From NCBI GenBank assembly GCA_903887845.1, contig CAISRC010000122.1, positions 1-64,000 of the forward strand: a stretch of DNA of 64,000 bases. The letters run 5' to 3'. This document shows, one piece after another, positions 14,474 to 33,612 of this stretch. The notes under the pieces were generated by a model, which was not told the origin of the DNA, did no database searches, and saw nothing but the letters and a program-made list of their open reading frames with translations. The position numbers were made by a program, and so were the translations under genes. The stretch comes from an uncultured Chlorobiaceae bacterium (GTDB lineage: Bacteria > Bacteroidota > Chlorobiia > Chlorobiales > Chlorobiaceae). Within the stretch, counting starts at the first letter, position 1; each line of letters opens with the position of its first letter.

Positions 14474-16717
14474 TCACTTGAAACGTTTCAAATCATCTTT
14501 TTCTACAGGAGTTAAACCTTGCAACCCTTCGCGATATTTATCGTCAAAATGCTTTTCAAGCTCAGCCGTCAGCCCTCGACGTGATGATTCTTCTACTGCA
14601 TTGTTATCAGGAATCTGACGGATAATACCCCGTGCAATCTCGGGAGATTCACTAGCGAGAGCAACGAGAAAGTCATTGAGCTGCCGGGTAAAGTCATCGT
14701 CCTCTTTCAGTTTTTGAGGATCATACCGTTTTGCAAAACTGATCTGAGTGTTAGCCTCCGCAAGAATTGACTCGAGATAAGGTTGTGGCGCATCCGGTTG
14801 ACTGGCACTCTTCAATCTATTCATAACTTCCTGAAGTCGAACCGGATCCGCTATGACTGTTTTCAAAATAATAACTAACTCTTCAACATCGTTTTTACCC
14901 AAAGGCTTCCCGACAACCTCTCTTGCATCAATAAGTGTTGTTGCTGCATCTGTAAAATCAGCGGTATAAAGATTTGCCCCACTCAAATCCACTCCCTGAA
15001 GATTTGCCCCACTCAAATCCACTCCCTGAAGATTTGCCCCACTCAAATCCGCTCCCTGAAGATTTGCCTTTTTTAAGTTTGCACCCTGAAGATTTGCCTT
15101 TCCCAAATACGTGCCCTGAAGTTTTGCCTCTCCCAAGTTCGCACCCTGAAGATTTGCTCCACTCAAATCCGTTCCCTGAAGATTTGCCCCACTCAAGTCC
15201 GCTCCCTGAAGATTTGCCTTTCCCAAGTTCAGGCTCTGAAGTTTTGATCCCATCAAGTTCAAGCCTTGAAAATTTACCTCTTCCAAGATCGCATCTTGAA
15301 GATTTACATCTCTCAAGTTCGCGCCCTGAAGCTTTACTTCCACCAAGTACGCGCCCTGAAGCTTTACCGCCTCCAAGTTCGCACCCTGAAGATAAGCATC
15401 ATTCAAGCTCGCGCCCCGAAGATCTGCATCCCTAAAATCAGCACCAATAAGAACGGCATTACTCATATCGGCATGTCGCAAATTCCGATGCTGGAGGTTG
15501 ATCGGTTCGAGCTGTGTTAACCCTTCCTTCCATTTTCCTGAACGAATCAGAGCAAGCGTCTCAGGCTTTGGAGGTTTAACAAACAGGAGCTGCTCATTCA
15601 GATCAAGCTGACGTTTATCATCCAGCAAATGCCATGTTGATAAAACCGTGGAGTTCATTTGAGAAGCTTGAATACTAATCAAGCCCTGTTCCAGGTGCTC
15701 CCCGTCAACCATAAGAGCAAGTGGCAGTAAGGAGCCAAAGAGTGTCAATAATAGAGCAAAGCTTCCACGTGGAGCTTGCTTGTGCCATAGAACAGGAAGA
15801 GCAAAAATAAATAAATAAATGGATGCAAAAGCCCTCCCACCTGTAAACAATAATATCACCACACTAAGAATAGCTCCTCCAAGAAGAGGAAAACCATACT
15901 CGTGGTTCCTGCTGAGACGTAACAGTACTGACCACAACGAAAGAGGAATCATAATCTGGCCTGCAAAGGCAAGTTTTTCATTAACAGCAAACAAACAGAT
16001 TGTGATTCCGGCAAATAAAAGCAGAAACGAACGCCAGACTCTTCGACGAGGAACATGTACCGCAATCAGAGCACGCCAATAGCCCTTCCAGTCATCATCG
16101 GGATGCAGAATAGTGGGCCAGAAAATGTTAATCAGGGCAATATCCAGCCATATCGCCATGCGTTGCAACCAGGTAACACTCTCGTCCTGATAGGCAAGAA
16201 ACTGAAGCTGCATTGAAAACAAGACAAAAAGCGGAAGCAGCACCACTGTGATTGAAGTCATCACTGCCAGGAAGAATTTCACCAGAGGGCTTGGCTGGCC
16301 AACCAAATAGTAGGTAAAGGGAAAAATATGCAACCGGTCATGCAGCCCACCAATGCCCTCAACCCCCGGCGCTGCTGCATCGAATGCAAAGAGTTTGCGC
16401 GACAGAAGCTGAAGCTGCAACAGCAAATTAAAATGAACAAGTACCAGAACAAAGGGTGCAAAAGCAAAAAAGCCGACAATGGGCATCTCCACATCCACAA
16501 ACGGCAACCTGATGCCCTTGCCGATCAGCAGGTCGAGGTCGGTTGTTCCAAACACAATAACCAGCACACAGGCACATGCCGCAATAAAGGCAGTATGCTG
16601 CACGGCCAGACGCTCTGAGGAGTGATTGGCTACATCAAGCAGCACCTCTGGATTTTTTTCTCCCAATTTTTTTAACTTTGGGGAGACATGAGTATGCATC
16701 CGAATTAGTTTACGCAT
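14474..16717 (-). CDS. Membrane-anchored pentapeptide-repeat protein
   Basis: A 747-residue protein of unknown function. Residues 1-345 are a membrane domain with about eight hydrophobic segments (near 42-56, 78-100, 147-172, 186-201, 229-245, 252-266, 279-292, 297-310, 320-336). Residues 405-597 are an uninterrupted pentapeptide-repeat solenoid (A(N/D)LxG pattern, as in ANLQGADLSG), and 600-747 is a charged helical tail. Pentapeptide solenoids can mimic DNA or scaffold assemblies. Its ATG overlaps the res stop (8 bp shared), so it is translated with the type III R-M operon. At DNA level 30-bp units are repeated almost exactly at 14971-15060. Confidence 0.8.
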   Translation of the reverse strand: MRKLIRMHTHVSPKLKKLGEKNPEVLLDVANHSSERLAVQHTAFIAACACVLVIVFGTTDLDLLIGKGIRLPFVDVEMPIVGFFAFAPFVLVLVHFNLLLQLQLLSRKLFAFDAAAPGVEGIGGLHDRLHIFPFTYYLVGQPSPLVKFFLAVMTSITVVLLPLFVLFSMQLQFLAYQDESVTWLQRMAIWLDIALINIFWPTILHPDDDWKGYWRALIAVHVPRRRVWRSFLLLFAGITICLFAVNEKLAFAGQIMIPLSLWSVLLRLSRNHEYGFPLLGGAILSVVILLFTGGRAFASIYLFIFALPVLWHKQAPRGSFALLLTLFGSLLPLALMVDGEHLEQGLISIQASQMNSTVLSTWHLLDDKRQLDLNEQLLFVKPPKPETLALIRSGKWKEGLTQLEPINLQHRNLRHADMSNAVLIGADFRDADLRGASLNDAYLQGANLEAVKLQGAYLVEVKLQGANLRDVNLQDAILEEVNFQGLNLMGSKLQSLNLGKANLQGADLSGANLQGTDLSGANLQGANLGEAKLQGTYLGKANLQGANLKKANLQGADLSGANLQGVDLSGANLQGVDLSGANLYTADFTDAATTLIDAREVVGKPLGKNDVEELVIILKTVIADPVRLQEVMNRLKSASQPDAPQPYLESILAEANTQISFAKRYDPQKLKEDDDFTRQLNDFLVALASESPEIARGIIRQIPDNNAVEESSRRGLTAELEKHFDDKYREGLQGLTPVEKDDLKRFK
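14971..15060. repeat. Three near-identical 30-bp tandem repeats in the pentapeptide gene
   Basis: Units at 14971-15000 and 15001-15030 are identical, and 15031-15060 differs by one base. Each encodes ten residues (two pentapeptides), so changes in copy number keep the frame. Related but diverged units continue to about 15420. The near-identity suggests recent duplication. Confidence 0.85.
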
Positions 16718-26158: not shown

Positions 26159-27637
26159 TCAGGATGTCTGGCGAATATCCGCCAGCAATCGTCTGCCTTT
26201 TTCGGTCAAGGTATACTGCTGACGGGAACTGGTCGGTTTATCCGGGATAGTCATGGCCAGAATATCTTCCTCCAAAAGCGGAGTGAGATATTTTTTCCTG
26301 AACTTGCTCCGGTTTTTCAAAACCATGACCGTCATCAATTCCTGAATCATCACCGGTTTGTCACAAGCAATCAGCATTAGTCCCGACTTGGTCCCGACTT
26401 GGTCCCGACTTGGTCCCGTCTTGGCCCCAGCTTGATCCCATACTGATTCTCCAATCATCGCAGTGGTTCCATAAGGCTTGTAATCCTTTTTGGTAAACTG
26501 AACCTGAAACTGAAGTCCTCTTTCAAACCATTTGAACTCGATTTCCGGGTACTCTTTCAGTTCATCAGCAATCAGCTTCAACCCATTGCCCCATTGATCG
26601 ATGATACCAAGCTTTTTAAAAACAGGGGCGATAACCTTGTTGCGGATATCGGACTGGCGGGCATCCATTTCATTAAAGTCGATGGAAGGCAGCAACTTGC
26701 CGGGGCTGGTAATTTCAAGCATGTCATCATAAATGGCAACCTTGATATCCTTGCCAGCAAGGGAGTAATCACGATGAACCACCGCATTGCGAATGGCTTC
26801 CCTGATGGCAACCACTGGATATTCCCAGCGGCTTTCGGTTTATACCCCTGTTACCGTTGACCCTTTGTTGATATGGCGAAGTACAAAATCATAAGCGCCT
26901 TCAGCCTGAATGGCAATATTTCCGTCGGCGGTTTTCTGGTCAATAAACTCGTGAGAGGATCTTCCTTTAAAGCGTGCACACTCAATTTTGGCGTAAGGAA
27001 ACAGCTCTTGTTTTACCGAACTGTCTGAAAAAAGCACATAAGCGTTCGTCGGCAATGGTGAACCCTGAAATTCTTTCAGTAATTCCAGTTTCCGCAGTGT
27101 GGCTTCAGTCAATACTTCGCCTGTTTTTTCCATGAAGAATTCCTGAAATGGCTCCAGAGAGATGTCGGTAAGCGCTTTGTCATGCACCAGCTCACTGTCG
27201 AACGAGATATTCCTGCGCTGCCGTTCAAGTGCTGCGATGATTTCCGCATCAGCAGGACGATTGGAGGAGCCGACACGAATGTAGGTGCCAGCAGCTTTGC
27301 CTTTTGATTTGAGTTAATAGGGCAGATTGCTGCCCCGATAAATCTGAACTTTGATGAATCGCTTGCCTTCAATACCGTGGAAAGAGATTTCAGGGATAAT
27401 GACCGGATGACAGTGGTCGTGAATGAGGTGGCTTATCTGCTCTTCAAGAGCCATCACCTCATCTTCTGCAATACCGGTGATCTCTCTCGGCTCATTTTTT
27501 ATCCCGATAAACAGCTCTCCGCCCGCATCGTTGGCGAATGCCACAATGGTTTTGGCAAGGTCGGAAACCGTTGGCAGTGACTCTTTAAACTCGATTCTGC
27601 GACCTTCCGGTTGATGGATGAGTTCGGTAATTTTCAT
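26159..27637 (-). pseudogene. COG2865 (AlbA_2/Schlafen-like) transcriptional regulator, copy A, two nonsense codons
   Basis: One continuous frame of about 492 codons starts MKITELIHQPEGRRIEFKES, has the AlbA_2 nucleic-acid-binding core FANDAGGELFIGI, a divergent histidine-kinase-like ATPase region (REAIRNAVVHRDYS, ITSPGKLLPSIDF, KLGIIDQWGNGLK) and a C-terminal winged helix. It is interrupted by two TAA codons, near 27316 and 26840, both at positions where copy B has a Tyr codon. The linker before the winged helix is made of 11-bp repeats (26381-26435). Direct-repeat partner of 32147-33612. Confidence 0.8.
26381..26435. repeat. 11-bp tandem repeats in COG2865 copy A
   Basis: Units TCCCGACTTGG start at 26381, 26392 and 26403, with one-base and several-base variants at 26414 and 26425. 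Read from the minus strand, three units encode an 11-residue linker repeat (GPSRDQVGTKS). Because 11 is not a multiple of three, gain or loss of one unit shifts the frame. Confidence 0.85.
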
Positions 27638-27768
27638 GATGCTTCAGTAGAGCCTGATATCGTTTTATTGCCAGCAAGTTACTACAACTTATATTCATTT
27701 CCTTGATTGCCTGTTACTCCTGACGCGGCTATAATTTCCACATCGGCCATGTGAGGCAACGCCAACAA

Positions 27769-28045
27769 TTATTCCGCCTCTCTTGCCAACTCCAGCATTT
27801 TATCCAACAGTTCTCGAAGCCTGGGGCATTTTTGACTGGCGATTTCAGGATTGAGTTTACCAAAAAGCTCTCTGCCATGAACAACCTTTTTGTATGAACG
27901 ATGTGTATGGAGCGAATAAAGGCGTTCCAGTAATTTTGCCGGTGGTTCAGTAAAATTGACCGTTTCAGGCCTGTCAATCTTTTTGGGAAATGCGTTTTTA
28001 ACTCTTTGCGGAAATATTTCAGGATCAATCTCATCCCATCTCCTC
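27769..28045 (-). pseudogene. C-terminal fragment of a DUF4276-like protein
   Basis: The frame reads WDEIDPEIFPQRVKNAFP, KKIDRPETVNF, HGRELFGKLNPEIASQKCP and ends LLDKMLELAREAE. This resembles the C-terminal half of the TOPRIM-like DUF4276 proteins that follow AAA_21 ATPases in accessory cassettes. The N-terminal half is missing: the fragment begins inside the end of the ATPase gene, so a deletion joined the two. Assignment to DUF4276 is from memory of the family pattern. Confidence 0.5.
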
Positions 28046-29231
28046 CAGTTCACCGGATTTGAAAAGAGAACCAAGAGGGTACTCCTGAAGCCAGTAGTTC
28101 AGATCGTCCCCCTGTATGGTTCTCAGTTGCGTCTCCCCATTTTCCCATTTCGCAACAGTGGTTGTGGGTATGGTTCCGGCAAAAGCGTTCAAAAAGTTGG
28201 GCGAATGGGTCGTCAGAATAACCTGTGACCTGGTTGATGCATCTATTGCATATTCAGCAATAATGGGAAGCATTGAGGGGTGAAGCCCGGTCTCAGGCTC
28301 ATCAATGGCAATAACCGGAGCGGGAGAAGGGCTCGCCAGTACGGTCAGTAAAAAAAGAAAACGGAGCGTCCCATCCGACAGTTCTGCCGCCGATTGCTCC
28401 CGTTTCAGTGATTTCCAGCGAATCCGCATTTGTATTCTTTGATCCGATGCCGGTGGAAAAACCAGCTCTTCAAAATCATCACCAAAGGCTGCCTGCATGG
28501 CGGAATTAATATCCTTTTTGAAATCACGATCACCCGTATACAGAGTATGTAGCACACTGATAAGGTTTTGTCCATCCGGGTCAACCCGTTTTTCCATCCT
28601 CGCAATTGCTGGCTGGCGAACTGGAGCATCCTTATTGGTATGGAGATCATGATAAACTGCTATAGATGATAACCATCTTTGGAATGGTGGAACAAAGTGA
28701 TTATTGATAAATGGCCCGGATGCGATAGAAAGAAGGCTCTCTTCGTCTGAAATAAATTCTTCCGCAGGGGTAAACGTATGTTCCATTTCATCAAAAACAA
28801 CCGTTTGCTTTCCTGTTCTTTCCAAAAACTTAAAAGGCTGTGTTTCAAGATTTTGCTTGAACTTGAATAAGTTTGTCAAACTCTCTTTTTCAACCTTATA
28901 TGAACTTCCCATACCAAGTCTTGACAATTCGAGATCATAGTGTTCAGGCCCATAATCTCCCCCATCAACCGTTGTTTCCAGAGAAAACTTGATGGATGAT
29001 GCAATACCAAACGATTGGCTCCATTCCGCCTAAAGACTGAATATATTTGCCCAGCCTTCCTTGAGCCGAAATTGAAATCAACTCTAACACACGCAATAAA
29101 TTAGATTTACCGGTACCGTTTGGCCCAATGATCACATTGAGAGCCCCGGGAGTCCAGGATACGTTCCGAAGAGAACGAAATCCCTCAATATCAAGTTGTT
29201 TAATTTTCACTCTCTCTTTATTTATGGACAA
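28031..29231 (-). pseudogene. AAA_21 ATPase gene with a frameshift
   Basis: The first frame (29231 to 28965) has the RecF-like start KIKQLDIEGFRSLRNV with Walker A GPNGTGKSN and ends at TGA after VWYCIIHQVFSG. Shifting frame near 29008 restores ASSIKFSLETTVDGG and joins 28927-28031, with the signature ELSDGTLRFLF, Walker B VIAIDEPETGLHP and TTHSPNFLNAF. A single indel thus separates two halves of an otherwise normal ATPase of about 395 residues. It follows the COG2958 gene after one base and precedes the DUF4276-like fragment. Confidence 0.82.
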
Positions 29232-30197
29232 TTACTCCTGTTCAATCTTTAATTTTTCGCGAATGTAGCTTCGGATATCCTTGACAACACTATCATACTC
29301 ATTTTTGTGAAACCGCTTGGACTCAAAGTCGATCTTGACCGCTTTAAGGAACTCCTCAAAGTCTGAGTTCTGCTCACACAGTTTATTGACAGTTTCCCAG
29401 TCAAGTGTCTCCTTTTGGCGTGCAGGGTAAAGAACCCTGGAGCTGTCAATATCGACCGGGTCGAGTTGAATAATACCAATCCCGAAGGATGAGGCAAGGC
29501 GCTGGAGTTCTGAAAGAAACTCATCATCCTGGAGAATATCAATAGCGACAAGATACCCTTCATGAGCCCAGGAGGAGTTTGAAACCGCCTGAAAATATGA
29601 TTCCCTGTAATTGGCTTTTGTGAGACTCTTCTTTAACTCAAAGGAAAAAAGGCGAAGCGAATTGTTGTCGGAGAGTCGATTGAATGCGATGACATCTGGT
29701 TGCCAATCGTCGAGGGGCAGATAAAACCCTACAATGTCGGGATGAATCCATTCATTGCAACCAGAACGCAGAGATTTTTCGTGAAATATTGTTTTTGTAA
29801 AAATTGATCGTCCACGATTGAACAGGGAGTTGGTATAGACGAAATAGGTCAGCAAAGGATGAAGATCCCGCTCGTGGTAGGTCGTCGATTTGACTTTCTG
29901 GCAGATCTCTTCTTTTTCGATTGTAATCACGGTATCCGGGAGCAGCTCGCGTTCACGTCCTTTCAGAAAAAAACGCGTCGGGCGTCGACCAACTTTGATA
30001 AAAGAAGATTTATCATTATCCCGCACTTCTACATAGAGTTGCGCTCCAAGGCTGTTCCAGGGTGTCTTGCCGGATGTCCTGATTTTTCCACTAAAGCCCT
30101 TCTCTTTTCCGATTTGCCAGATCTCCTGATACGTCAGAGGTTTTGTGGTCTCCTTGAGCACCTCCTGAGCAAGATCAAGGAAGGAATACACTGCCAT
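29232..30197 (-). CDS. COG2958-type protein: HARE-HTH with a nuclease-like domain
   Basis: A 321-residue protein. Residues 1-78 are a HARE-HTH/winged-helix domain (FLDLAQEVL, LTYQEIWQIGKEKG, WNSLGAQLYVEVR). Residues 110-230 contain HPDIVGF (152-158), PDVIAF with D168 and FSFELKKS with E187-x-K189, the spacing of a PD-(D/E)xK nuclease. A restriction-like or DNA-repair activity is therefore plausible but unproven. It has an AAAAGGAA ribosome-binding site and is followed after one base by the AAA_21 ATPase, with which it would form a defence-type operon. It appears intact while its partners are broken. Confidence 0.72.
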   Translation of the reverse strand: MAVYSFLDLAQEVLKETTKPLTYQEIWQIGKEKGFSGKIRTSGKTPWNSLGAQLYVEVRDNDKSSFIKVGRRPTRFFLKGRERELLPDTVITIEKEEICQKVKSTTYHERDLHPLLTYFVYTNSLFNRGRSIFTKTIFHEKSLRSGCNEWIHPDIVGFYLPLDDWQPDVIAFNRLSDNNSLRLFSFELKKSLTKANYRESYFQAVSNSSWAHEGYLVAIDILQDDEFLSELQRLASSFGIGIIQLDPVDIDSSRVLYPARQKETLDWETVNKLCEQNSDFEEFLKAVKIDFESKRFHKNEYDSVVKDIRSYIREKLKIEQE

Positions 30198-30487
30198 AGC
30201 TTTTTTCCTTTTCTAACTATAACCGCATTGTGCAAAAATTATGCCCAGCAATAAACCGTTGTCCATCGTAGAGAGCGCCCGGGGTTTTGATGACAAGAGT
30301 CATGTTCCTTCCTCTGGCTCCAACTTCGCAATGGTCGCTTCAGATTCGGCTGCCATTTCTCATTGAAAGAATATAACTCAACCGTCAATAGTACCGCATT
30401 TCTTACATTCAGATTCTCCGACTCAAACCGCAAATTCAGCAACCGGTTATCAATGACTTCGGCATCCTTGATCTACTTTTAACCTCT
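30198..30487. other. Gap with degraded coding sequence
   Basis: On the minus strand one frame reads LLNLRFESENLNVRNAVLL and another AAESEATIAKLEPEEG followed by an overlapping ATG (TLVIKTPGALYDGQRF). These look like the ends of one or two former genes, but I cannot name the family. The right part upstream of 30197 holds the COG2958 gene's ribosome-binding site. Confidence 0.35.
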
Positions 30488-30637
30488 TTACCCATCTCCC
30501 GCAATCGCTTGCACCAGCTTGCTGATTTTGTCGACAAAGAAACGTTCGCTCCACAATGAAAGGCTTGGCTGCTCTGTGGAAGAAAGAAAAGGAGCGACAT
30601 CCTGCGCAGCTTTTGGCCATTCAATACTCTTTATTTT

Positions 30638-31351
30638 TTAGGTCAAGGCACTTGCCAGCCATGAGGCATCAATCGCAAGGCTCTCTCCTGCCCACGGCCC
30701 AAACTGTTGCAGGGCATTGGCAAGGTGTGGCAGATTTGGCTTGATCTTTTGCTTGCAATACCAGGTAAAATCAAACCAGTCGCGACCTTTCAGGTAGGGT
30801 CTGCAAAGCAGTGCATGGAGTTTAAGCGCATAGTTGCTGGGCAAATCTTGCGCACAGATTTCAAAGTCGAGGGGGAAATCAAGATAGTGCCAACTTGTAC
30901 CCGTCCCGGCAGGCGGGCTGGTATCAATTTCAAGCTTGACCAGAAGTTTACGCTGTTTGTCGGAATCAAAAAATGACAGGTCAAGTTGCCGCCCAATGGA
31001 ATCATTCTTGATCATAGCCTGACGTACTGCCTTGTTCATGTTGCTGCGATCGCTCAATTCGCAATGCACACCAAACTCTGCCATCGTCTGAGTAAGCGAA
31101 TCGAAATAGAACGACCAGTGAAATGACTGATCTGGCGCCAATAGAATAAAATCCAGATCTTCTGAAAAACGCGGTAACCCATGCAGGATACGCAGAGCAG
31201 TGCCGCCCTGAAATGCCGCCTTTTCAAAGAATTCTGCTCGCCATAGGGCATAAAGCGCAACCTCCTGCAACATCTCCTTGATCGCCTGTTCCTCCTGTAC
31301 GGCATTGGTCAGCGAATAGTGTTGCAGACGCCTGCGAAGCAGTTCAATCAT
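30638..31351 (-). CDS. AbiEii/AbiGii nucleotidyltransferase toxin, probably C-terminally truncated
   Basis: Toxin of a type IV AbiE abortive-infection system; AbiEii enzymes are GTP/nucleotide transferases. The ATG at 31351 overlaps the antitoxin stop (ATGA). The DNA polymerase beta-like motifs are GGTALR at 49-54 and RFSEDLDF at 61-68, followed by LDLSFFD and KLEID and a C-terminal ALKLHALLCRPYLKGRDWFD. The protein stops at 237 residues with TAA at 30638-30640, but the same frame stays open to 30488 (KIKSIEWPKAAQDVAPFL, LWSERFFVD), giving 287 residues in the ancestor. Activity may be lost. Confidence 0.82.
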   Translation of the reverse strand: MIELLRRRLQHYSLTNAVQEEQAIKEMLQEVALYALWRAEFFEKAAFQGGTALRILHGLPRFSEDLDFILLAPDQSFHWSFYFDSLTQTMAEFGVHCELSDRSNMNKAVRQAMIKNDSIGRQLDLSFFDSDKQRKLLVKLEIDTSPPAGTGTSWHYLDFPLDFEICAQDLPSNYALKLHALLCRPYLKGRDWFDFTWYCKQKIKPNLPHLANALQQFGPWAGESLAIDASWLASALT

Positions 31352-31998
31352 CTGGCCACCTCGCGGCGGAGTGACTGAATGCACTCCCTCATGCGTTTGT
31401 GCAGATAGACCTGTTGCATCAACTCCCATGTGGCTGGATTAACAGAATCGAACAACTCGTCATCAATGCGCATGGATGCTGTAAGCGTTTTCATGTCGGT
31501 CACTCCAAGTTTGCGAAAACAGAGCATATCAAGCAGCGCCCGCAGGGGTTGTGCTACTAAAGCCACTTGACCGGAAAAAATGTGCCGATCGACCGCCTGC
31601 AAAAACTGCCCGCAGTGCAGTGCCAGAGGATAAAAACGATAAAGCCCCAATAATGGGTGATTCACCACCAACTGACGCCTCCCGGGTAACACCGAAAGAG
31701 TGGTCGGCACCGATTCGGGAATCCAGCCGTGAAAGCTCAGTGCCGTCTCCATTGAAATGTATGAACCGGGTTGCAGGGCCTGGGCAAGCACATAAGGGTG
31801 GGGCGAACTATTTTGCAGGTTTGGTGCAAGCAGGTACAGACCGCGCCGCAATTGCAGCAACTCGCCATGCTGCATGGCACGATTGACGAGGTTGTAGCGA
31901 CGCTGGGGAGTACCATCAACCAGACGAGCCAACTGAGCCTGCGATACCACCCGGTGCCCGAGACCAGAGTGCATCAACTTTTCTGTGATCGTTTGCAT
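31348..31998 (-). CDS. AbiEi antitoxin family protein
   Basis: Antitoxin and autorepressor of the AbiE type IV toxin-antitoxin system. The 216-residue protein has an N-terminal winged-helix part (VVSQAQLARLVDG, LVNRAMQHGELLQLRRGLYLL) and the AbiEi C-terminal domain with SYISMETALSFHGWIPE and QPLRALLDMLCF. It is translationally coupled to the toxin. A palindrome at 32010-32028 sits 12 bp upstream of its ATG, where AbiEi repressors bind inverted repeats. Confidence 0.85.
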   Translation of the reverse strand: MQTITEKLMHSGLGHRVVSQAQLARLVDGTPQRRYNLVNRAMQHGELLQLRRGLYLLAPNLQNSSPHPYVLAQALQPGSYISMETALSFHGWIPESVPTTLSVLPGRRQLVVNHPLLGLYRFYPLALHCGQFLQAVDRHIFSGQVALVAQPLRALLDMLCFRKLGVTDMKTLTASMRIDDELFDSVNPATWELMQQVYLHKRMRECIQSLRREVAR

Positions 31999-32009
31999 TC
32001 ATGTATGAT

Positions 32010-32028
32010 ACTTTCATTTTTTGAAAGT
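32010..32028. promoter_or_regulatory. Palindrome upstream of abiEi, probable operator
   Basis: ACTTTCA and TGAAAGT flank five Ts, forming a perfect 7-bp inverted repeat just upstream of the antitoxin start codon. AbiEi antitoxins repress their own operons through inverted repeats, which suggests this role. Confidence 0.55.
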
Positions 32029-32146
32029 TACAAACATTTTTGTGTAAAAAAGTCCGAACAATTTCGCTGGCAACACAGGAGCAAATCTGTCGGATTCCAG
32101 ATTATCTGCACACACCATAATGAAATGCGATATTTATGAAGTCGCT

Positions 32147-33612
32147 TTAATATCGCCTGCCTTTTTCGGTCAAGCAGTACTGCTGACGGGAACTGGTCGG
32201 TTTCTCCGGGATAGTCATTGCCAGAATATTCTCCTTCAAAAGCGGTGTGACATATTTTTCCCTGAACTTGCTTCGATCTTTCCACTCCATAATCGTCATC
32301 AATTGCTGAATCGTCGCAAGTTTTTCGCATGAACTCAAGACGATTTCAACCTGGTGCCGACTTGGTGCCGACTTAGTGCCGACTTGGTGCCAACCTGGTG
32401 CCAACTTGCTCCCGGCCACACTCTTCCATTACCGTAGAGGCTCCATCCGGCCTGTAATCCTTTTTCAAAAACTGAACCTGAAACTGAAGCCCTTTTTCAA
32501 ACCATTTGAACTCTATTTCAGGATACGCGTTCAGTTCATCAGCGATAAGCTTCAAGCCATTACCCCACTGGTCAATGATTCCAAGCTTTTTGAAGACAGG
32601 CGCTATAACCTTGTTGCGGATATCGGACTGGCGGGCATCCATTTCATTAAAGTCGATGGAGGGAAGCAAGTTGCCGGGACTCGTGATTTCGAGCATGTCG
32701 TCATATATGGCGACCTTGATATCTTTGCCAGCAAGAGAGTAATCGCGATGAACAACCGCATTGCGAAGAGCTTCCCTGATGGCTACCACAGGATACTCCC
32801 AGCGGCTTTCCGTGTAAACACCTTTTACTGTTGCTCCCCTGTTGATGTGACGGAGCACAAAATTGTATGCAGCTTCAGCCTGAACAGCAATATTTCCATC
32901 GACAGTTTTCTGATCAAGAAACTCGTGAGAAGAGCTCCCTTTAAACCGGGCACACTCAATTTTGGCGTAAGGGAAAAGCTCTTGTTTTACCTGACTGTCG
33001 GAAAAAAGAACATAGGCGTTCGTCGGCAAGAGTGAGCCCTGAAAATCTTTCAGCAATTCCAGTTTTCGCAGGGTTGCGTCATTCAATGCTTCGCCTGTTT
33101 TTTCCCTGAAAAATTCCTGAAATGGTTCAAGAGAGATGTCGGCAAGCGGTTTGTCATGCACCAGCTCACTGTCGAACGAGATATTCCTGCGCTGCCGTTC
33201 AAGTGATGCGATGATTTCAGCATCAGCAGGACGATTGGAGGAGCCGACACGAATGTAGGTGCCAGCCACTTTGCCTTTTGATTTGAGGTAATAGGGAAGA
33301 TTGCTGCCGCGATAAATCTGGACTTTGATGAATCGCCTGCCCTCTATACCATGGAAAGAGATTTCAGGGATAATGATCGGATAACAGTGGGCGTGAATGA
33401 GATTGCTTATCTGCTCTTCAAGGGCCATGACCTCATCTTCTGCAATGCCGGTGATCTCTCTTGGCTCATTTTTTATGCCGATAAACAGCTCTCCGCCCGC
33501 ATCGTTGGCAAATGCCACAATGGCTTTGGCAAGGGTCGGAAACCGTTGGCAATGACTCTTTAAACTCGATTCTGCGACCTTCCGGTTGATGGATGAGTTC
33601 TGTAATCTTCAT
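32147..33612 (-). pseudogene. COG2865 (AlbA_2/Schlafen-like) regulator, copy B, two frameshifts
   Basis: A paralogue of copy A with very similar sequence over its whole length. The start MKITELIHQPEGRR is followed after about 27 codons by an extra G near 33534 (AAGGGTCGG against AAGGTCGG), then an open frame 33518-32373 covers the AlbA_2 and ATPase-like regions. That frame ends in TAA inside the 11-bp repeat tract (32355-32409), and the winged helix continues in another frame (32419-32147). The C-terminus also stops nine residues earlier than in copy A. Confidence 0.8.
32355..32409. repeat. 11-bp tandem repeats in COG2865 copy B
   Basis: Five units related to TGCCGACTTGG at 32355, 32366, 32377, 32388 and 32399. 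Upstream and downstream parts of the gene are in different frames across this tract, consistent with a change in unit number or an indel in the tract. Confidence 0.85.

Follow-up and report, generated by a model that had tools for sequence, protein, structure and literature searches.

The window analyzed here is a 64,000-nucleotide stretch of contig CAISRC010000122.1, from the genome of an uncultured Chlorobiaceae bacterium, and our subject is a pair of 11-bp tandem repeat tracts within it, each embedded in one of two related, putatively COG2865-type genes.

Two gene copies with 11-bp repeat tracts

Both genes lie on the minus strand, copy A at 26159-27637 and copy B at 32138-33612 (ATG at 33612-33610), and align with 92% mean column identity. 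They share the domain order SLFN_AlbA_2, HATPase_c_4 and a C-terminal winged helix-turn-helix (wHTH) matching Pfam Fic-like_C. Pfam E-values for SLFN_AlbA_2 and HATPase_c_4 were 4e-20 and 7.5e-22 in copy A and 2.6e-16 and 7.5e-21 in copy B, and those for Fic-like_C were 4.5e-17 and 3e-15, respectively. HATPase_c_4 occupies 26495-26755 in copy A and 32469-32729 in copy B, and the wHTH 26162-26380 and 32147-32344, the 3′ end of the latter having been changed by an 11-bp deletion. The repeat tracts are placed between these two domains. A sequence-only reading of the window had described 11-bp tandem units in the linker before the wHTH of both copies, and Tandem Repeats Finder recovered them as period-11 arrays at 26380-26439 (5.5 copies, score 85; sense-strand unit GGGACCAAGTC) and 32352-32408 (5.2 copies, score 86; sense-strand unit GGCACCAAGTC). 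When the whole 2.65-Mb genome was searched with the two-unit pattern GGSACCAAGTCGGSACCAAGTC, allowing up to three mismatches, all eight matches fell within the two tracts, and a reversed control of the pattern had no match.

Neither copy retains an intact reading frame. Copy A is a pseudogene, as its single frame is interrupted by TAA codons at 27314-27316 and 26840-26842, both of which correspond to Tyr codons (TAC) in copy B; its array keeps the frame. Copy B bears several indels, which are located by comparison with its closest relative, a gene in a Chlorobiaceae metagenome-assembled genome (MAG) designated L021. The L021 gene is intact, stays in one frame throughout and has 6.5 to 7 units. 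The two are 98% identical across the 1.6-kb gene region, with differences concentrated in the first ~240 bp and no substitution in the next ~1.2 kb around the tract. Relative to L021, and insofar as MAG assemblies are taken at face value, copy B has an additional C at 33535, is short of exactly one unit (GGCACCAAGTC) at 32391 and lacks GATTTTTGGCG at 32154, the last being the 11-bp deletion and lying outside the tract. One unit has apparently been either lost by copy B or gained by L021. As the sequence-only reading also stated, the two sides of the copy B tract are in different frames, with HATPase in the open reading frame (ORF) at 32373-33518 and the wHTH in that at 32147-32419.

Spacing, conservation and position of arrays among homologues

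Homologues were drawn from genome contigs and from Chlorobiales, Lachnospiraceae and gammaproteobacterial genomes. A strong array was present in 96 of 143 non-redundant linkers, compared with 27 of 1306 (2%) control windows of equal length from the same loci (Fisher p 6e-88), which marks the linker as a hot spot for repeats. Periods of 11 bp (43 arrays), 12 bp (28) and 21 bp (12) predominated, with 13, 10 and 42 bp also found. The 21-bp periods were composed as 9 + 12 or 10 + 11, and periods of 9, 15, 18 and 27 bp were nearly absent. A second sample, collected across the phylum with the HATPase_c_4 profile, was searched from the end of the HATPase to +360 bp and thus takes in arrays just past the stop codon; it yielded arrays in 21 of 64 cases, with best periods of 11, 12, 20, 24 and 33 bp only. 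Almost all periods were 10-13, 21, 22, 24, 33 or 42 bp, which corresponds to about one DNA turn per motif, and this spacing recurs across phyla. Successive TCGG cores in the largest wHTH class were 11 bp apart in 94 of 128 instances and 9-12 bp apart in 116. Direct repeats at one-helical-turn spacing are what an iteron- or parC-like array would present.

Conservation within the arrays follows the DNA rather than the encoded peptide. The units of an 11-bp array fall into three reading registers, and conservation was correlated between registers (Spearman 0.69-0.85). In two classes, position within the unit accounted for 76% and 84% of the conservation variance, and codon position for 0% and 4%. 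TCGG was kept at 81-100% in every register of the first class, including silent third positions, with variation at neighboring positions. The tract peptide was disordered in an AlphaFold2 model of L021, in which the predicted local distance difference test score (pLDDT) was below 50 for residues 389-418 (24-36 in ten-residue blocks), and the wHTH was modeled confidently (pLDDT mostly 81-90).

The array motif also varies together with the adjacent DNA-binding domain. TCGG[A/T]GA arrays group with a wHTH of the '...RHGSPKNGYWE' type, [C/A]CAAGT arrays with the Fic-like_C type found in the window, GTGCCGGATA/GCCGATAA arrays with a '...RSTIYVKN' type, and CAGCAGGAGTT arrays with a Bacteroidetes type. 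Array similarity followed the wHTH given the HATPase (partial Mantel r 0.52, p 0.0005) more closely than the HATPase given the wHTH (r 0.15). Arrays were found in none of 12 homologues lacking a wHTH, compared with 104 of 168 possessing one (p 2e-5). Such co-variation with a cognate DNA-binding domain is a further property of iteron- and parC-like arrays. The linkers of L139 and L177 carry TTCACC, the reverse complement of GGTGAA in the Lachnospiraceae motif, and could hold an inverted array; a systematic test for reverse-strand similarity was negative, and the reverse-orientation motif was not used.

The arrays lie mostly within an ORF or just past its stop codon, instead of occupying a promoter, an origin or a centromere. 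In twelve homologues whose linker has no array, the flanking DNA contains a phased one, mostly 0-45 nt past the stop. Ten of these are 3′ of the gene, starting at the stop codon in L254 and L282 and at +1 (L232), +4 (L255, about 12 units), +5 (L249), +15 (L047), +20 (L123), +33 (L248), +45 (L244) and +135 nt (L034). The other two, L067 (11 copies of TTCGGT at 11/12 bp) and L260, have the array upstream and none in the linker. For nine of the twelve, no ORF reaching 80 aa overlaps the array. Downstream arrays were more frequent than in controls (10 of 88, p 2e-9), and none was found in gene bodies, taken as the first 350 bp of 185 genes. Upstream arrays were limited to L067, L260 and L166 (genome G788), the last having a linker array plus upstream copies. 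In the 2.9-Mb genome of L166, the doubled motif (up to two mismatches) occurred only upstream of and inside the COG2865-type gene. The arrays outside the genes of L067, L123 and L166 each resembled those in the linkers of the wHTH class to which the gene belongs (p 0.0002 each), with window copy A the best match for L123. No relic second gene was found beside these three. An origin of the flanking arrays from relic genes was unsupported, the only matches being weak ones at L255 and L232.

Reading frame and proposed function of the arrays

The sequence-only reading had proposed that slipped-strand events in the tracts switch the wHTH on or off, and had described all three frames of the tracts as largely open. 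Because 11 is 2 modulo 3, every frame of a perfect 11-bp repeat yields one and the same cyclic peptide of 11 residues, and open frames therefore add no evidence for a switch. A unit holding ...ACTAAG... shuts one of the three frames, and in copy B a TAA at 32373-32375 (unit GGCACTAAGTC) closes the HATPase frame within the array. Among arrays with a period of 10, 11 or 13 bp, 47 of 49 proteins read through to the wHTH, where one third would be expected by chance without selection (p about 2e-20); all 49 with 12-bp, 21-bp or other triplet periods did so. The two exceptions are L040, which was excluded because its frameshift is in the wHTH and not in the tract, and L083 (Ruminobacter amylophilus DSM 1361), in which the upstream gene and the wHTH are intact and out of phase only via the tract. 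L194 (genome G160), which lies outside the 47/49 count, resembles L083 in being out of phase; its upstream ORF stays open over at least 362 aa. Other out-of-phase tracts are those of copy B, L182, L085, which was left out as evidence on account of a second frameshift, and L144, a relic that has lost its 5′ end and is two units shorter than L052; most of these remaining copies (copy B, L085 and L144) sit in genes bearing further lesions.

Since out-of-phase tracts exist among the homologues, non-triplet changes do happen. The sequence-only reading had named two findings that would refute a switch, a unit number that never varies or one that varies solely by multiples of three, and the single-unit difference between L021 and copy B is neither; copy B nonetheless has other frame lesions beside the tract. 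For strain-level unit counts, no close homologues were found in plasmids, phages or viral contigs. Selection keeps the arrays in frame despite non-triplet changes. The arrays are also not specifically non-triplet, as about half have a 12- or 21-bp period and some lie outside coding sequence. Thus, the part of the proposal that stands is that unit changes shifting the frame occur, as with L021 and L083. A frame switch as the main function was rejected on the 12- and 21-bp periods, the arrays outside ORFs and the 47 of 49 in frame, and the conserved property is the motif with its spacing of about one helical turn rather than a capacity to switch frame.

We favor, at a probability of about two in three, the interpretation that the 11-bp units are an iteron-like protein-binding array embedded in coding sequence, with the gene's own wHTH as the likeliest ligand. 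That the array is bound by this wHTH is quite probable; autoregulation as its purpose is somewhat favored, because tight control would be expected for an effector of this kind. Direct repeats about one helical turn apart would form a row of putative docking sites, usually within the stretch encoding the disordered linker before the wHTH and, in some homologues whose linker has none, past the stop codon or upstream. Several protein molecules may then occupy neighboring sites along one face of the DNA at their own locus, and the bound array would repress or tune transcription of the gene itself and of downstream genes, limiting a Schlafen-RNase/kinase-like defense factor. Because an array of 11-bp units must keep a total length that preserves the frame, slippage by one unit would mostly be costly and lead toward pseudogenes, copy B being an example. 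Extended to the family, the proposal is that defense-associated Schlafen/kinase/winged-helix proteins of several phyla carry a cognate phased array in cis, usually in their own ORF and working in all three frames, that array and DNA-binding domain co-diversify, and that the two form a self-addressed protein-DNA module controlling the effector at its own locus; this wider statement is only narrowly favored.

Several points weigh against the autoregulatory array. In about 40% of the homologues bearing a wHTH, both the linker and the DNA up to 350 bp from the gene lack an array. Extra phased copies of a gene's own array were absent from the promoters of the tested genes except L166, and a classical promoter operator with extra upstream copies was rejected on that account. 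An ORF that reaches at least 80 aa runs across the flanking arrays of L244, L248 and L249, three of the twelve. Linker and wHTH are neighbors that pass on as a unit, which could explain part of the Mantel correlation and makes it weak evidence by itself; regular expressions were used to define the wHTH classes, and the core motifs were chosen after viewing the data. Part of the homogeneity among units must stem from slippage.

This slippage is the starting point of an alternative in which the arrays are neutral minisatellites, functionless as DNA and tolerated in a disordered linker. Variable unit numbers, internal homogeneity and the predicted disorder fit such an account, as do the 21-bp arrays of Hespellia (L054), Blautia (L055) and genome G420 (L134), with about two, three and four copies, but it leaves unexplained why periods are restricted to 10-13 bp and their sums, why the core is kept at silent sites in all frames, why arrays need a wHTH and why those beyond the ORF carry the motif of the wHTH class concerned; we regard it as unlikely. 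Phase variation, in which gain or loss of units would toggle the wHTH, is also quite unlikely. It can point to the tandem repeat in an ORF with a unit length not divisible by three, to 11-bp units as the commonest class, to the one-unit difference between copy B and the intact L021, and to L083 and L194, whose upstream gene and wHTH are out of phase but otherwise undamaged. Roughly half of the arrays nevertheless have periods of 12 or 21 bp that are unable to shift the frame, some are outside an ORF, nearly all of the non-triplet arrays are ON, and copy B, L085 and L144 have other lesions; motif and spacing are what is conserved.

Two further accounts concern what reads the repeats. They could be a DNA element recognized by another regulator or a nucleoid or partition protein, or an element for curvature or recombination, and not a target of the gene's own wHTH. 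A site in or near the 3′ end of a gene is unusual for an operator, and most promoters lack copies, which would suit such a reader; the motif, however, tracks wHTH class more than HATPase and arrays are missing where the wHTH is missing, and we consider this account rather improbable. A repeat selected at the protein level, as a coiled coil or helical spacer of 7 or 11 residues, is highly improbable. Although repeats of 7, 4 and 11 residues resemble helical periodicities, the peptides GIND, ENVGDVG and QVGTKSGPSRD are Gly- or Pro-rich and the tract has no predicted secondary structure. A coiled-coil or hendecad repeat was rejected given the disorder of the tract in the model, the irrelevance of codon position and the arrays outside ORFs.

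Related systems, genomic neighborhood and significance

Arrays of comparable geometry occur in plasmid partition, where the parC repeats bound by ParR are 11 bp in R1, 10 bp in pB171 and 20 bp in pSK41 (PMC9426499). The ParR/parC systems share with the present arrays direct repeats with near-helical spacing, a repeat matched to its binder, and families without cross-recognition (PMC9426499). In contrast, parC is usually upstream of parM and is read by a ribbon-helix-helix protein, whereas the arrays described here are usually in the ORF of their presumed winged-helix binder. Plasmid Rep initiators are winged-helix proteins that bind the phased direct repeats of iteron arrays cooperatively (PMC4980987), and binding of this kind is proposed here as well; iterons are located in origins, though, and no replication role is indicated for these arrays. 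BldC binds head-to-tail as cooperative multimers on direct repeats at sites of variable length (PMC5859096), as is proposed for the arrays, but its DNA-binding domain is MerR-like and its sites are in promoters (PMC5859096). The phase-variable Haemophilus mod gene with AGTC repeats (PMC3711429) likewise has a non-triplet repeat in an ORF whose unit changes shift the frame; unlike mod, half of the present family has triplet-length units, unit numbers are frame-keeping and arrays also occur outside ORFs. The domain order of the window proteins is shared with the Schlafen RNase-minimal histidine kinase-wHTH proteins of bacteriophage exclusion (BREX) loci (PMC12839542). Searching the words of that paper for mentions of tandem or direct repeats gave no match, and literature searches found no paper on repeats in the COG2865-type Schlafen/HATPase/wHTH family.

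Defense genes recur around these loci. An AbiEi antitoxin homologue (31348-31998, minus strand) adjoins copy B in the window, followed by an AbiEii toxin homologue (30638-31429, minus strand) of 263 aa, compared with 313 aa in L021, where AbiEi/AbiEii are also among the neighbors. Genes brxC and pglX of BREX flank the gene in Azotobacter, PglX/PglZ were also found as neighbors, and type I restriction-modification genes are likewise among the neighbors. An AAA ATPase at 28031-29231 of the window (HEC-01A-like in PADLOC) is broken into two reading frames. The region of copies A and B, with this split ATPase and the shortened AbiEii, looks like a decaying defense island. Elsewhere in the window, a repeat array of 30-bp period at 14969-15427 probably belongs to a pentapeptide-repeat gene.

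Additional repeats and gene remnants were observed near members of the family. In L047, a Tissierellales MAG, a long, mostly non-coding 11-bp array (TTGA[A/G]CGATGG; 2030-2345 and 2730-2782) flanks a small ORF at 2335-2721, four-helix-bundle-like by eye, upstream of the COG2865-type gene. In L022 (4932-4965) and L027 (6251-6298; GGGAACAGAAA), 11-bp repeats lie at or just past the 3′ end of a second, different AlbA_2 gene directly downstream of the COG2865-type gene. L107, L108, L109, L114 and L120, from other Chlorobiales, have orphan winged-helix fragments without a HATPase, several with a few leftover units. L056 has, at 2514-2834 and upstream of an intact copy, a remnant of the 3′ end of a further gene of this type, and the two sides of its 11-bp tract (AAAAGGAGCC) are in different frames.

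If the arrays are indeed targets of their own wHTH, the DNA target of a large and poorly characterized family of defense-associated regulators would be readable from the family's own genes, and dozens of matched wHTH/motif pairs would be open to bench testing. The family would also be a clear case of a DNA-binding constraint shaping coding sequence in all three frames, which would explain how non-triplet tandem repeats persist in coding sequence without a role in phase variation.

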